A stretch of 32,330 nt of DNA from a virus. The notes below the pieces were generated by a model. The model saw nothing but the letters and a program-made list of their open reading frames with translations, ran no database searches and was not told the origin of the DNA. A program made the position numbers and the translations under genes. Of the stretch, positions 6,939 to 31,254 are shown in pieces. Where the stretch lies: the IMG/VR virus record IMGVR_UViG_3300032893_000214, positions 1-32,330 of that record. One strand, written 5' to 3'. Within the stretch, counting starts at the first letter, position 1; each line of letters starts with the position of its first letter.

Positions 6939-9900
6939 TTGACCGGCTTAGCCCCCGTCAGTTGATCGACTTTATCCTGAATCGCTTGTTGAAACAACTC
7001 AGGGTGCCGAGCCAACATCGCATCCTCCGCGCCAGCGATACGCGCGCGCCCTTGGCCGGAGCCATAGCGTGCAGTTCTGATCGTTCCTTCAATCCATTCC
7101 TTGCGAATAAAATCGGGCATTTTGTACCAATCTTCATTGCTCATAAGGCTTTGAAGCGCCATGTTCGTGCGCACGCCAGCAAGCGTTTGATATTCATAGT
7201 ACAATTGCGAATTTAGCTTCTGTCCCTTAATGTTCTGTGCAAGGTCGGCCGGTCCAATGTTAAGCCGTTGCAGCTCGATATCAATCGGGTCGGTAGTGAC
7301 CGGAGCGGACCCGATGATGCCCGCGCCGCCGGATTTGTAATACATCGGGTTGGCGATTGCCCGCCCGCGGTAGTCGATCCTGATCGGCAGGCTTTCCCGT
7401 CCCCAGCCCCACGCATTGCCGGGAATGTGTGATCTGAACCCGTCAATAATGTTGCGCGTTTCCCGCGCGTAGCGATCAAGCGACGCCGCCGTTTGCCGAA
7501 ACGCAGAAGAAAATGGGGCAGCGGTTCCGAATATTGACGGAATCTTCCAAGCGTTTTCTTTGTAGTTCTTGCCGATTTCTATTACGTCGGCTAGCGTCGT
7601 CATTCCAACGCTATCTTCAACCCAACTCGAAAGCGATTGAACGGCTTTGGCAATTCCGTTTGCGTACTCGCCTTCTGAAAAATGCCGGCCCGCAGCGACC
7701 ATATCCGCCATCGCGGCAATCGCATCGCCGATCGGGCCAAGCCGATTAAGGCTGTACCAATAATCCCCAAGGCGGATTGATTTTGGAATCGGGTGCGTAT
7801 GAGCCCAAACCTTTCTATCTTCCGGGTCAGGAGGCCCGCTATCGGCGATCGTATCGCTCAGCACGCCCTGAGCCGTCCACGCGCCAAGCCCGGAGGCGAC
7901 GACCAGACGCGCCAATTGTTTGTGCTGCTCGATCGGCCCCATCTCGCCACGCAATCGCGCGCCGATTTCCGAGCCTTTGAAAAAGACGCCGGCCGCCGAG
8001 GTCGGCAACAACGAATTCGCGGCCTTGAACAGATTGGTCGGAATGAGGCGAAACGGGAATATCCATCGTCCGCCCGGCGTTTGAAGGATCGTCTTCGACA
8101 CCCGTTCGCCGACTTCGCCGAGCGGGCTGGTGAAATTGAAATAGTCGGCGCTCGAAACCGCCTTGTCCATTTCCTTTTCGGTCGGACTGGCGAGCGCAGC
8201 GGCCTCGCGCTGCCAAAAATCCTGCGTCCAAGGCTTCGCGCCTTCGGTCATGGCGCGCCGATAAGCCTGCTCCTCGCGGGCCATGTAGAAGGCCATGTGG
8301 CGGGTCAGGGTATGGATGAACGAGGCGCTGCGGGCCGGCACGCCGATCACTTCACCAATCGCGTGGCCGATCTTCGACGAATAGGGGTTGCCACGACCGC
8401 CCGTGTAGACGTTTACCGCGCCTCCCTCGGTGTTTGTTTTTTTTGCCTTGATCGCGGCCTCAACCGCACGTCCAACCGAGGCGGCGTATTTGCCGCTCGG
8501 GTCTTCTTTTTCCGCTGCTCGGCGCCACGCCTGCACGGCTTCTTCGCCCGGCAATGGCGTCGGCATGTTATCGCGGAACGCCTTGGCGGCGGAAATCATC
8601 GCATTGCCAAAGCCCTTATAAAGTCCGACCGTCGTCGCCATCGCCTCACTTACATATAGACGCTCGATATCCCTATCGGTCAAAGATGCAACTTTGCCAA
8701 TCGCCGATGCAATCGGGTTGATGACAAGTTTTTCATACGCCATGAACGTATCGTTGACGCCGACATACTTCGTGTGGGTAATCAGACCGGAAATAAGACC
8801 ATTGACCCACGGATAATACAATTTGTCCGCCGTCGTATATTTGCGCGCTTCTCTGAGAATACGGGCCGGCGCGGCGGGATCGTTGGAGTTGGCGACCTTA
8901 TTGGCGAGGTCGCGCAAATCGTCGGCAGTCGGGGCGTCCTCGCCCTTCTTCGTCGTCATGAACTCGTTGAGCTGCTTCTCGTTCTTGACGCTCTCCATGA
9001 ACTCTTGGATCACATTGCCCGTGCGGCCCCACTCGGCTCGCAGGCCGACGACGCGCTCAAGGATCGAATCAAAGGCGATTGAGTGCTGCATCTTGGCGAT
9101 TTCGAGCGCCTTCAATTCATCGAAATCGTTGGTCCCGCCTTTGTCGCGCACAGCCTGCGCGGCGTCGCGGACCTTGTTGCCGAGGTCCATCATCAACTGA
9201 TAGGCGCGGCGAACCTTCTGCTCATTTTCAAGTTTCTCGCTGAGCGCGCCGAGGCCCTTCACGACTTCCTCGGGCGACAGGCCGAAGGCGTCCGCCAGCG
9301 GCTCGACGTGCATCAGTGGGATTGTCCCCGCCCTTGCCTTCGCGTACTCGTCAGGCGGTACGGCGTCGTTGATGATCGCTTTCACGTCATCGGAAGTTGT
9401 CAGCTTGGAAATGCTGCGCTCGTATCGCCTGCGCCACGCCGTCTTCTCCGGGCTCGCCGGCTCGGAAATGCTCTCGCCCTTCTGGGCTTGCGCCGCGACA
9501 GTGCGCGGTTGCTCTACAGGATCGCCGTTTTTATGTGTGATTTCTACATCGTTGGGGTCGAGATCGTTGATATTCTCCAAGTTTTCCGGCCGCACGCCGT
9601 GGACGCGGACGCCATAAGTGTCACCCTCGACCCGCTCGCCGGGTTTCAACACGCGGCCCACAGCGTCGGTAATCACGTCATAGGAATAGGGCGAGCCATG
9701 CTCGGCGGTCATCGGCTGAATCGCCGCGCGCGCTGCATCCTCGGGTTTGCCCAAATCAATCGACGGCTTGTCCGGGCCGATCAGTCCCAGGTCTTTCGCA
9801 ATTGCGAGATTGATCCGATCGGCGATGCCCCCGGTGACGCGAGGCGCGCTGTCATCGCCACCAAGAATCTTCCTGGCCTGTTCGATTTCCTCTGGCGTCG

Positions 9901-25784: not shown

Positions 25785-27527
25785 TCACATCCCCATTTGC
25801 TGAGGCTGACCCTGCTGCGGCATCGCGCCGGGTTGCTGGACTTGCATCCCCGCCTTCTGAGCAACCGCAGTCGCCTTGAGCATGGCGGCCTGGTTAGGCA
25901 GCGCGGCGAGCTGTTCTTTCCTCTGCATCGCCTGCTGGCGGTTCTTGCGCTTGCCAGCGATTTCCTCGTCGGAACTCATCCAGCTCGGCGGCACGGCCTG
26001 AATCTCGGCAATGGCGGGAACGGCGACATCGAAGTTGAACGGGTCGAGGAGGCTTGGGTCTTGCGTGATTTGAACGAGTTCCTTGACCGTCTCGACGGTT
26101 CGCATGAAGCCCGCGGCTTCCTGGGCTTTCTGAGCCCTAGCCAGAGGATTGGTGAAGCTCACTCTATACTCGCCCTTAGCCTCGCGCAGCACTGGCGGCA
26201 TGGGCGGCAGAAGCCGCTGGGCGCCTAGCACGTCCAGCTCCCGATCGACCAGCGGAGCGCAATATTCGTCCTGCTGACGGGTCATCGACGGGGCGATGAG
26301 GATGCCTTTTTCCGCCGTCCGCTCAATGACCTCGGTCGCGGTCATCGTCGGGGTTTCGGTCAGGATTTGGAACAGGGTGACGAGGAAAGCGTCATTGATG
26401 AGGGTTCTTTCTTCCTGCATCATCTCCTTGGAAACCTGAATGTTTCCGGTCGGCAGGACATTGACCAGGAGCTTCCCGTCCGCGTTGACGCCGCCCTTAT
26501 TGAGAGCCCCAGGGCGCATGTCGAAGCTCATGATCCCGTCGTCGGCGGCGAGCAATACCGGGTCGGCCGCCCTGTGGCCCTGCTTCAAGAACATGCGCTT
26601 TTCGGCGTTCAAGGTTTTCAGCGCCGGCAGGACCATGCCGGCCGGGCCGCGACCGTAGGTTTCCTGCGGCGCCTGATCATAACGCGAGATGGCGATCGGC
26701 AGGGTTCTGTAGCCGCCCTCGCTCATCAGGCTTCGGCTGGCCAGGCAGATGTAATATGAGGCGAAGGGCATGCCCTTGTAGTCGAACCTCTCCGGGTCGT
26801 AATCGGTCCGGGGGCAGACCCGGTGGAGGAAATCGTAGAGGATTTCGCTGTTGGATTCATAGGCCGAGCACAACTGCGGGGGCAAATTTTCCTCACCCCA
26901 GCGCTGCGCGCATTGACGGGCGTTCAGTTTGAACCAGCGACAGAAACTGTCCGCCAGCCCCTGGTGGTTCTGGCCAATGAACAGTTCGCCCAGATTGACG
27001 GCCCTGTATCTTATTCCTGGGCCATAAGCAGGGTCCAACTGATCGATGAACATCCCACAGGTGCCATAGGCCCCTAAGTTACGGAAATTGCTGTGATTCT
27101 GGCCGGAGAAATTGGCCGACGCCTTGTAGCGACGGGAGAACAGGACGCGGTTCGTCTGCTCGAAATAAAGCCTCACCCCGCGCTGCTTCATCACATAATC
27201 GTTGTCGGCCTCCAGCCCATGCCAGATCATATTTCTAGGCGTTATCAACGAATTGCAGATCGCGGCGAAGCGGTAAAGCGCCATCATGCCGGTCGCGTCA
27301 ACCTGGCGATCGGTCTTCTTCTGGCCGGGCCAGTTGTAATTGCCGTAGAAGAACGTGTTTCTGGAAATTGGGTCAATCAGTTCGGAGATTTCTTCCCACT
27401 GCGAGCCAAAAGTGGCGCGATCAAGTTGCTTCGCCTGAAAGTCGCGCAGGCTCTCGGCGACGATCTCCTCCTCGCGCGCCGTCTGCAATCGCACGCTGGC
27501 CGTCTTGTCTGATGCTACGGCGTCCAA
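25785..27527 (-). CDS. portal (head-to-tail connecting) protein
   Basis: A 580-aa protein of the podovirus head-tail connector family: R-A-T-F-G-S-Q-W-E-E-I-S-E-L-I-D-P near the N-terminus, D-A-T-G-M-M-A-L-Y-R-F-A-A-I, the long wing/stem region, T-P-T-M-T-A-T-E-V-I-E-R (about residues 390-401) and a Gln/Met/Pro-rich C-terminus. The only in-frame start after the upstream stop is a TTG at 27527, four bases after the previous gene ends, so coupled translation from TTG is likely. It forms the dodecameric ring through which DNA enters and leaves. Confidence 0.87.
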   Translation of the reverse strand: MDAVASDKTASVRLQTAREEEIVAESLRDFQAKQLDRATFGSQWEEISELIDPISRNTFFYGNYNWPGQKKTDRQVDATGMMALYRFAAICNSLITPRNMIWHGLEADNDYVMKQRGVRLYFEQTNRVLFSRRYKASANFSGQNHSNFRNLGAYGTCGMFIDQLDPAYGPGIRYRAVNLGELFIGQNHQGLADSFCRWFKLNARQCAQRWGEENLPPQLCSAYESNSEILYDFLHRVCPRTDYDPERFDYKGMPFASYYICLASRSLMSEGGYRTLPIAISRYDQAPQETYGRGPAGMVLPALKTLNAEKRMFLKQGHRAADPVLLAADDGIMSFDMRPGALNKGGVNADGKLLVNVLPTGNIQVSKEMMQEERTLINDAFLVTLFQILTETPTMTATEVIERTAEKGILIAPSMTRQQDEYCAPLVDRELDVLGAQRLLPPMPPVLREAKGEYRVSFTNPLARAQKAQEAAGFMRTVETVKELVQITQDPSLLDPFNFDVAVPAIAEIQAVPPSWMSSDEEIAGKRKNRQQAMQRKEQLAALPNQAAMLKATAVAQKAGMQVQQPGAMPQQGQPQQMGM

Positions 27528-28404: not shown

Positions 28405-29886
28405 TCATGCGAATACATCGAAATCCAGCCCTATGGCCAAGCCATTGTTGGGCGCGCTGAGATTGCGCTTATTGCCCAGAAGCCCCGGCTTGGCGAATCG
28501 CTTCGCCATTATTGCGGTTCGCACGGCCGATAAAATGTCATCATTGACCTTGACGATCTGACCGCCCTTTCTGTGATAGGCCCTGAATTCCTCCCAAAAC
28601 TCACTAAGTTCGGACGAGACCTTGAACCGTCCGGTGGTCATCCGCTCCCACATTTCCATCACGCCGGCCTCGGTCGAGACAGAGCCGTCCTCGAAAGTGG
28701 CGTGGGTCGGCAACATCCGAAGCTCCGTGGTCTTCTTATAGATGCTGGCCAGAGGCTCGCCCGAACCTTTGTCTCGAGCCGTGCCGTCTTTCGGCCACGC
28801 CACCATGACGTTAGCCCCGATCGCTTTCATGGGAGTGGCCTGTTGCAGGGGCAGGGCGTCCCTCATCTTCCCGCACTTGTGCAGATGGATCACGTCGGCG
28901 TCGCGGTCCCACAGGATCAGCGCCCAGGCGAAGGGGTGGCCGATACCGAAGTCGATGCCGAACAGCTTCGCCCAATGCTCGGGAACGCTGGCGATCGGCG
29001 GTTCGGAAATCACTTCCTGGCCGATCGAGAACACCCGACCTTCGCCGCGCATGATCCCGCCCTCGATGCGGGCGACGCGCTCATGAACCGGGTACTGGCC
29101 GATGATGGTGTCGTACTGCTCCGGGGAGATGTGCAGGGCGTCTCTCAACCCCATGACGGTCATCGCCCGTTCGGGATGGTCCTCCTTGGTGAAACGATCC
29201 GTGACCTGGGTGTCGCCCAGCAAGGAGGTAAAGGTGACGACGATCATCCCGGCAGTCGCGGTGATGCGGGCGAGCTGTTCGGTGTAGACCTCGATCGGCG
29301 GCTCCTCGTCGTCCCACACCCAATCGATCGTCTCGCCCTGGAATTTCGACCGGCCCTGCTCATAGGATTTGAACTTGACGATCGAAATTCCGCCCGAGAC
29401 GTGTTTGACCTGCACGGTGTCGAAGGCGTCCGTCACGCCCCTCGCCAGCGAAGTATCCAGGATCAAATGCTTGGGGATCAGCCCGGCCCCGAACTCGGCC
29501 GTCACGCCCGGTTCGCCCATCAGCTTGCGTTGGATAGTGTCACGGGTCGCCAGCGACGTTTCGCCGCAGGCCCAGCCGCGGGTCGGCCTTGTCCAAATCC
29601 GCCCCTGCCAGTCCTTTGGGTAAAGCCCAGTCAAATGATAGGCCGCCTCGGCGGCTCCACATTCTGTTTTTCCGTACTGATTTCCCGAGGTCAGCAGCCT
29701 CTCCCTTTTGGTTTTCCCAAGCGCAAAGTGAATCGCCTGCTTTGGGTAAGGCTTGAAATACTCCAGCCGGTTGTATTTCTTGTGCTCCTGCAATTTCCGC
29801 AGGATATCGAGCTTGACCCGCAACTCGTCGTCGCTCAGCCCTGACAGAAGATTGGCGAGTTCAGCCTCCGTGTAGTCGTCGGTCAA
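28405..29886 (-). CDS. terL: terminase large subunit
   Basis: 493 aa. It starts at a TTG whose last two bases are shared with the TerS stop (TTGA); a GAGGAG site at 29895-29900, eight bases upstream, supports this start. ATPase motifs: S-G-N-Q-Y-G-K-T-E (Walker A, residues 67-75), I-D-W-V-W-D-D-E-E (Walker B, 187-195) and T-F-T-S-L-L-G (motif III, 218-224). The nuclease domain begins at F-G-I-D-F-G-I-G-H-P (Asp312). It packages DNA into the procapsid and cuts the concatemer together with TerS. The type of DNA ends cannot be told from the window. Confidence 0.92.
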   Translation of the reverse strand: MTDDYTEAELANLLSGLSDDELRVKLDILRKLQEHKKYNRLEYFKPYPKQAIHFALGKTKRERLLTSGNQYGKTECGAAEAAYHLTGLYPKDWQGRIWTRPTRGWACGETSLATRDTIQRKLMGEPGVTAEFGAGLIPKHLILDTSLARGVTDAFDTVQVKHVSGGISIVKFKSYEQGRSKFQGETIDWVWDDEEPPIEVYTEQLARITATAGMIVVTFTSLLGDTQVTDRFTKEDHPERAMTVMGLRDALHISPEQYDTIIGQYPVHERVARIEGGIMRGEGRVFSIGQEVISEPPIASVPEHWAKLFGIDFGIGHPFAWALILWDRDADVIHLHKCGKMRDALPLQQATPMKAIGANVMVAWPKDGTARDKGSGEPLASIYKKTTELRMLPTHATFEDGSVSTEAGVMEMWERMTTGRFKVSSELSEFWEEFRAYHRKGGQIVKVNDDILSAVRTAIMAKRFAKPGLLGNKRNLSAPNNGLAIGLDFDVFA

Positions 29887-30419
29887 TCCGACTTCTCCTC
29901 CGTCGCCGTCCCCTCGATCACCTTCCCCTGCCCGGCAAGCGAGGCGATCGACACTTCCGCCTCTCTGGCCAGCCCGAACAACTCCTTCAGCAGCTCCTCC
30001 CGGCTCTGCCGCTTGTCGTCCACCACCACCCGGTGCTCGCTCACCGCCTGCATCCCCGTGCGGTCCATGACCATCTTGATCGCCTTGAGCCGGTCGGCGG
30101 TCTTCTCCTCGGGGTCAGAAGCAATCGTCACTAGATCGTCGGCGAGGTCCGCCCCCCGAGCGGCCATCCGCTTCAAAGCCTCGACGCGCAGAGCCGCCAG
30201 AACCTTGGCGTTCCTGATCAGCCGATAGCCCAGCGTCTTGGCGTTCTCGTCCGTGTAGCCCGCCAGCCTCGCCGCAGCGGCGTAATCCAGCCCGCCAGTC
30301 TCCAAAATTGCCAGGACGAACTTGCGCTGCATCCCCGTCAGCAGCCGCATCTCCGGCGACAGGTCGTCTTCGTCCAGGACCGGGAAAACAAACCGAGGCT
30401 GATAAACCCGTTCGACCAT
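29883..30419 (-). CDS. terS: terminase small subunit
   Basis: 178 aa. An N-terminal helix-turn-helix region (M-Q-R-K-F-V-L-A-I-L...Y-A-A-A-A-R-L-A-G-Y-T-D-E-N-A-K-T-L-G-Y-R-L-I, residues 30-68), typical of terminase small subunits that bind the packaging site, is followed by an oligomerisation helix (L-K-A-I-K-M-V-M-D-R-T-G-M) and a charged tail. The ATG at 30419 is the first possible start after an in-frame TAA and has no ribosome site; a -10-like hexamer lies only six bases upstream, so the message may be leaderless. It is the first gene of the late operon. Confidence 0.82.
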   Translation of the reverse strand: MVERVYQPRFVFPVLDEDDLSPEMRLLTGMQRKFVLAILETGGLDYAAAARLAGYTDENAKTLGYRLIRNAKVLAALRVEALKRMAARGADLADDLVTIASDPEEKTADRLKAIKMVMDRTGMQAVSEHRVVVDDKRQSREELLKELFGLAREAEVSIASLAGQGKVIEGTATEEKSD

Positions 30420-30425
30420 GCCATC

Positions 30426-30454
30426 GGTTTACTTAAGTGAACCAAAATCGTCAA
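30426..30454 (-). promoter_or_regulatory. terminase/late operon promoter with overlapping near-palindrome
   Basis: On the leftward strand, TTGACG (30449-30454), a 17-base spacer and TAAACC (30426-30431) resemble -35 and -10 elements of a housekeeping promoter, the -10 being weak. The predicted transcription start falls at or next to the terS ATG. The 18-bp near-palindrome GGTTTACTTAAGTGAACC (30426-30443, one mismatched pair) covers the -10 and spacer, a good place for a repressor or activator operator. Confidence 0.5.
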
Positions 30455-30462
30455 GATCGCCC

Positions 30463-30478
30463 TGTTTCACGTGAAACA
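30463..30478. promoter_or_regulatory. parS: parS-like ParB binding site
   Basis: The perfect 16-bp palindrome TGTTTCACGTGAAACA is identical to the consensus of bacterial chromosomal parS (TGTTnCACGTGAAACA), the site recognised by chromosomal ParB/Spo0J. It lies eight bases upstream of the predicted -35 of the terminase promoter. No parA or parB gene is present in this window, so the host ParB is the obvious candidate partner. Only one copy was found. Confidence 0.8.
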
Positions 30479-30568
30479 TATTCCACATTGGCAAGCTGTC
30501 ATAGGGTTTCCCTAGAGAAGCCGCGAAAAAGTCAGTTCAGGTAACCCGGCTGCGGGCGGAGCGATCGG

Positions 30569-30599
30569 CGGGGTCGCCCGGCCCCACCCCGGTCTTTTT
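30569..30599 (+). terminator. rightward intrinsic terminator-like hairpin
   Basis: CGGGGT (30569-30574), an 11-base loop and ACCCCG (30586-30591) form a stem followed by GTCTTTTT on the forward strand. In this orientation it has the layout of a factor-independent terminator, but no forward gene lies between it and the start of terS. It could end a short forward RNA or antisense transcription. Confidence 0.5.
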
Positions 30600-31254
30600 C
30601 GCCTCGCTGATCTGGCCAGATTGGAAATCTCTAAACACCTAGGCAATGCATTGTTATCGCTACACAATAACTTTCATTAGCGATCGCTCATGTTCCATAA
30701 TGGCGATTATGCGAATGACCTGTTCGCACCATTAGTCTAGCAACGCTGTAGAATTACGCGTGTGTTGCAGAGCATGCGCCTAACGCTGCTATCTGTCTGC
30801 TCAGGCTCGCGTATGGATGAGACACACATAATCAGCTCGCGCGTGTGTGGCGTTGTCACATATTGCCCGGGACGCATATCTCAGCGGATATCCGCGGACA
30901 CGTCTTGGACTCGCGAGGCTTGTCTGTGGATGCTGGGCTTGGCGAGGGGCTGCTGGGCTCTGCTCGCTGGCGCGCTTTGTGGTCGCGGCCTGCTCGCTCA
31001 CGAATTGCCGAGCTTCGTCTAGCCGCGCGCGCGAGACTTGATTGGAACTGATTCGTTTACGCCTGTCAATAGCTGCACATTTGGCGTTGATATCATTGAT
31101 GAATTGGCAAGATATTATGGAACCTGACTGCACTTGCCACATTGGTTGTGCAATCTGCGATAGAAATAGTGACAGATTTGGGATTTTGTCATGGGAAAGT
31201 TCTGAATTATCAAAGACGGATTGTGACGCGTTGGCGATCTGTAACAATTTGTGA
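30600..31254. other. palindrome-rich intergenic control region without a clear gene
   Basis: No convincing coding sequence is seen. Perfect palindromes: ATCTGGCCAGAT (30610-30621), CAATGCATTG (30644-30653), AGCGATCGCT (30679-30688) and GCGGATATCCGC (30884-30895). Gapped inverted repeats: ATTGT-9-ACAAT (30650-30668), ATAAT-4-ATTAT (30697-30710) and GCGAA-7-TTCGC (30711-30727). The part from 31040 to 31254 is clearly more AT-rich than the rest of the window. A 70-codon forward frame at 31042-31254 with several Cys is possible but lacks a ribosome site. Likely an operator/promoter region. Confidence 0.5.

Follow-up and report, generated by a model that had tools for sequence, protein, structure and literature searches.

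We analyzed a viral contig of 32,330 nucleotides (hereafter, the window), which is possibly a fragment. Its DNA-packaging genes lie in a leftward late operon on the minus strand, in which the first gene encodes the terminase small subunit (terS, 29883–30419; phrog_51, E = 2.8e-13, and PF03592 over the cutoff), followed by the genes for the terminase large subunit (TerL, 28405–29886; PF03237 and PF17289 over the cutoff) and the portal, or head–tail connector (25785–27527; PF12236, E = 3e-93). The TerL protein was 39–47% identical to those of P22-type and Rhizobium phages. On the upstream side of terS, 43 bp from its ATG, we found the 16-bp perfect palindrome TGTTTCACGTGAAACA (30463–30478), an orphan site of the chromosomal parS type. 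Between it and the terS start are the hexamer TTGACG (30449–30454, minus strand) and an imperfect 18-bp palindrome, GGTTTACTTAAGTGAACC (30426–30443, repeat I3), which has an operator-like form and could be an operator. Farther upstream is a stretch of ~0.8 kb without a convincing gene (30500–31250), which is unusually long and is also present in two relatives, L125 and L126. This noncoding stretch contains an imperfect dyad, TTCCATAAT(N5-6)TTATGCGAA, at 30693–30715 in the window, at about 8836–8862 in L126 and at about 8856–8882 in L125; it is possibly an origin, a pac site or the site of a regulator.

The initial annotation had described the 16-bp palindrome as the exact consensus of the bacterial chromosomal ParB site and as a match not expected by chance, and both statements hold. 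All 16 of its 16 positions agree with the dyad TGTTNCACGTGNAACA of chromosomal-type parS, and at 60.5% GC the exact sequence is expected between 2.2e-6 (zero-order model) and 3.0e-6 (first-order model) times in the window. It was also the sole match in the 32,330 bases when up to three mismatches were allowed. The site is thus real and did not arise by chance and, judged from the sequence, it is very probably bound by the ParB protein of the host. The source phage is a virus of soil bacteria that carries its parS copy adjoining the DNA-packaging genes, and its host appears to be an alphaproteobacterium.

Searches of the record found neither a ParB_N domain (PF02195) nor a ParA-type ATPase (AAA_31, PF13614), in agreement with the earlier statement that parAB is absent from the window; because the record is possibly a fragment, a distant parAB locus would be compatible with this result. 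Neither the ParB gene nor the ParA gene that characterizes phage-encoded ParABS systems of the P1/N15 type was therefore present in the record, and the arrangement found, a host-type parS on a possibly fragmentary phage record without parAB, is that of the phi29 type. No integrase was found in the window or in the nearest long relative, whereas 5 of the 20 clade records examined had one. The window phage could be virulent, which counts against a role in partition, since a purely lytic phage would need none.

One explanation for a parS at this position is that host ParB represses or times the terS–TerL promoter, and that rising phage copy number titrates ParB until the late operon opens. The distance of only 43 bp to terS suits an operator, and there is a precedent in Pseudomonas aeruginosa, in which ParB represses genes beside the intergenic sites parS3 and parS4. 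The initial annotation had also placed the −35 element of a terminase promoter 8 bp from the site. The hexamer that it read in the sequence, TTGACG, does follow parS at a distance of 8 bp when the minus strand is read, but the promoter itself is weak: no acceptable −10 comes after it, the hexamer at a spacing of 17 nt being TAAACC (3/6), and a consensus promoter scanner did not report TTGACG. The scanner's own minus-strand match, ATGACA-16-TATGTT (9/12), has a −10 that overlaps parS, and matches of this kind occurred near the chance rate (2 found compared with 0.7 expected).

Relatives bear on this explanation as well. Single-protein scans recovered one relative with terS, two with TerL and none from bacterial genomes; an alignment scan with TerL was then used and yielded 80 viral loci and 80 genome loci; of the latter, many came from alphaproteobacteria, mostly Rhizobiales. 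The nearest relatives (L125, L126, L127 and L128, with TerL about 60% identical) had no parS when whole records, including those of 33 kb and 46.5 kb, were searched at up to two mismatches, which indicates that the site is not essential in the group; a four-mismatch match upstream of terS in L126 was within chance. Across the wider TerL clade, for which up to 10 kb around TerL was covered in most records, parS with at most one mismatch was present at 5 of 81 loci compared with 0.004 expected. Four of these sites lie a short way upstream of TerL; the fifth, in L122, is an exact copy immediately ahead of the portal gene. The sites in L137, L174 and L199/L200 fall inside the 3' end of terS, within its last ~60 bp. 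A protein-level cause for this placement was rejected because the terS tail VSRET occurred only together with parS (4 of 74 terS) and was missing from the other 70. Two-mismatch matches in L173, L177 and L180 were discarded as coding coincidence, given by TerL codons for HVKH.

The clade sites thus occur in three contexts, all within the packaging region, and repeated gain of a DNA site is the best reading of contexts that differ in this way. Conservation at the same place in related phages, proposed earlier as a check, is missing in the closest relatives, and its absence had been named as grounds for rejecting the idea; this is outweighed by the wider data, in which parS recurs at packaging genes, both across the wider clade and among marine phages of an unrelated group. 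Of 26 genomes that harbor related prophages, and are thus those of hosts of relatives, 12 also had the identical site, in one to three copies each that cluster like chromosomal parS.

The marine group emerged among the first 120 IMG/VR stretches with an exact site, at least 11 of which carried parS directly upstream of TerL from another family, kin to that of Pelagibacter phages HTVC027P and HTVC023P. An exact parS was present in 18 of 80 relatives from this group, a fraction that is biased because part of the set was found through parS; most of these sites were 54–164 bp upstream of the TerL match and others were elsewhere. Among marine variants with two mismatches, four of six were perfect palindromes compared with 2% a priori, and such paired changes, which keep the dyad, point to selection on the ParB dyad; this evidence comes from the marine group, the window's own clade having too few sites. 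Whole genomes of the cultured Pelagibacter relatives contained zero parS.

The usual placement of the marine sites ahead of TerL is what repression by ParB would lead one to expect. Against it, relatives have parS inside terS, before the portal or kilobases away, the neighboring genes in other phages are diverse, and control of a promoter covers only those sites that stand beside TerL or terS. With no convincing promoter at the window site, and with sites in other phages that are internal to terS, ahead of the portal, at further positions or multicopy, the proposed repression or timing of the terminase promoter is not borne out, and we regard it as an unlikely role, if still a contender.

We also asked how common such sites are among phages at large. 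An exact-site scan of IMG/VR returned at least 120 stretches, compared with 5, 1 and 33 for control palindromes; the control with 33 stretches was the core-swapped TGTTTCAGCTGAAACA, so a CAGCTG center is not equally favored. ParB_N was absent from 95 of the 99 parS-bearing IMG/VR records tested, many of which are short fragments. In an annotated collection of cultured phages, the 30-mer around the site matched 382 records compared with 2 and 21 for two control 30-mers, and the symmetric variant TGTTCCACGTGGAACA, which is parS2/parS3 of P. aeruginosa, was found in 166 phage records, led by Pseudomonas. These tallies count records, not independent lineages, and are inflated by near-identical phages. 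Orphan parS has been gained repeatedly at the packaging genes, in this clade and in the marine group, and phages generally carry it in large excess over controls.

These numbers also bear on whether the window site could be a chance match, a recent capture of host DNA or the target of another regulator that reads palindromes. Its patchy distribution and its absence from the nearest relatives are what such origins would produce, but the expectation of 3e-6 in the window, the big excess over control palindromes, the lower count for the core-swapped center and the phage genes that flank parS all argue against them, and we consider this the least probable of the explanations weighed here.

The parS variant carried by phages tends to match that of their hosts. 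Records with the TTT/AAA form were led by phages of Listeria (87), Microbacterium (62) and Arthrobacter (49), and also included phages of Gordonia (25) and Pseudomonas (10); those with TGTTCCACGTGGAACA included phages of Pseudomonas (35), Mycobacterium (27), Stenotrophomonas (13) and Klebsiella (10). For both variants, coliphages and Salmonella phages were outside the ten commonest names, which fits Enterobacterales as an order not known to possess a chromosomal ParABS. The Klebsiella jumbo phage RaK2 (NC_019526.1), with TGTTCCACGTGGAACA at 62490, and related jumbo phages with the same site are an exception to host matching, since the Klebsiella chromosome is not known to carry ParABS.

Several genomes carry more than one copy. 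The 5.8-kb inovirus bajarodino virus 72 (PQ006098.1) has five exact parS at 712, 1182, 2767, 4108 and 5764, several of them directly after gene ends, and gave no ParA match; it is a strong candidate for putative use of the host centromere by a chronic phage. Two IMG/VR contigs, L017 (2657–3444) and L044 (10535–11462), each have five exact parS in about 1 kb without a ParB match, and are either viral contigs with an array of parS or host fragments that were misclassified.

Taken together, single and multiple sites, shifting positions, coding as well as noncoding contexts and missing parAB are all explained by a cis-acting anchor or centromere, and sites inside terS, before the portal, at other positions or in several copies favor such an element over an operator. 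Anchoring or partition is the function that we favor for the window parS: on balance, this orphan parS is probably functional, as a site on which host chromosomal ParB would load and by which the phage genome would be anchored or partitioned. The use of host ParB suggested by the initial annotation is likewise the best explanation for a chromosomal-type parS in a record from which parAB is absent, although as a prediction from sequence comparison. ParB is a CTP clamp that loads at parS and slides over kilobases, a single parS is enough for segregation, and the Bacillus subtilis parS used in vitro was TGTTCCACGTGAAACA (PMC8299390). By the anchoring model, ParB–CTP clamps of the host would load at parS and slide onto phage DNA, after which ParA, SMC or both would couple the genome of the phage to the machinery that segregates the host chromosome. 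A genome that is extrachromosomal, stalled or newly entered could then be placed and passed on in the manner of the host's origin region. A parS near terS would in addition label a terminus of the virion DNA, terS being close to pac in P22-type phages.

ParB might instead be recruited to protect, compact or position the genome at entry or during replication, through ParB–SMC loading, shielding of DNA ends or association with the host origin region, inheritance not being the goal. The sites near terS and pac are compatible with this, as are those close to the ends of several cultured linear records, such as RpAliso (147105 of 149362) and PE09 (position 4), and the site in Stenotrophomonas phage Salva, which is inside a PhageTerm repeat. 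REC (409 of 98432) and Gordonia phage Woes (71439 of 73752) likewise have near-end sites, and parS in cultured linear phages is often separated from the record end by only a few per cent of its length, as if it were a terminus marker. The end position is read from a handful of entries, however, and many sites are internal; we judge this protective role to be distinctly unlikely. It is very unlikely that the phage copies serve as a decoy or weapon that titrates host ParB and disturbs segregation and division. The many copies of the genome in an infected cell would be expected to sequester ParB, but with a single site in each of them the sink is modest at early stages of infection, and the five-site inovirus is of a chronic type that should spare host division.

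Returning to anchoring by host ParB, the presence of host parS in many unrelated phages without partition genes suggests that the host segregation protein may commonly be borrowed. A broader proposal, which we put forward tentatively as plausible but short of probable, is that phages from many families, whether tailed, gokushovirus-like or filamentous, have converged on a common strategy of borrowing the host centromere. Each would have between one and five orphan parS that match its host, often beside packaging genes or close to a genome terminus, and ParB, with ParA and/or SMC, would capture the genome for anchoring, for timing, or so that it is inherited while the phage is dormant or in a carrier state. 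If so, use of the host centromere would be a general phage trait, given the hundreds of records with host-matched orphan parS; an orphan parS would predict phages that persist in carrier or plasmid-like states; and the parS variant would hint, from sequence, at the group of hosts that a metagenomic virus infects.

Finally, we compared the window site to known systems. Bacterial chromosomal parS has the identical 16-bp palindrome but is found near oriC or parAB, whereas the window parS is on a virus record beside terminase genes. Phages P1 and N15 and the cluster A mycobacteriophages also have a centromere on phage DNA, but they bring ParA, ParB and a parS of their own; no such ParA or ParB was found in the window record. 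Alphaproteobacterial phages under host CtrA resemble the prediction for the window phage in that a host cell-cycle DNA-binding protein acts via intergenic sites; the protein and the site are different, and CtrA sites are transcription operators (PMC9437464). The closest parallel in kind is phi29: as PMC9437464 describes, citing Meijer et al. (2005), host Spo0J (ParB) helps to entrap the DNA of this phage in spores. Like the window record, phi29 is without parAB, and its DNA is handled by host ParB, as is predicted here. The phi29 host sporulates and the switch is gated by Spo0A, whereas the window phage has one site, adjoining terS, and an apparent alphaproteobacterial host. A search of the journal literature for phage-borne parS gave phi29–Spo0J as the sole case, explained by sporulation in that source. 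Within the literature searched, the kind of site is thus known from phi29, and its placement at terS, its occurrence in a non-sporulating host group and its breadth in phages are new. The phi29 relative PZA has three TGTTYCACGTGRAACA sites, one of them inside the portal gene, and the phi29-like Glutamicibacter phage Voltaire (OV696617.1), which has an actinobacterial host, carries two exact parS at 8742 and 8761, separated by 3 bp, in the gap that precedes its major tail protein gene.
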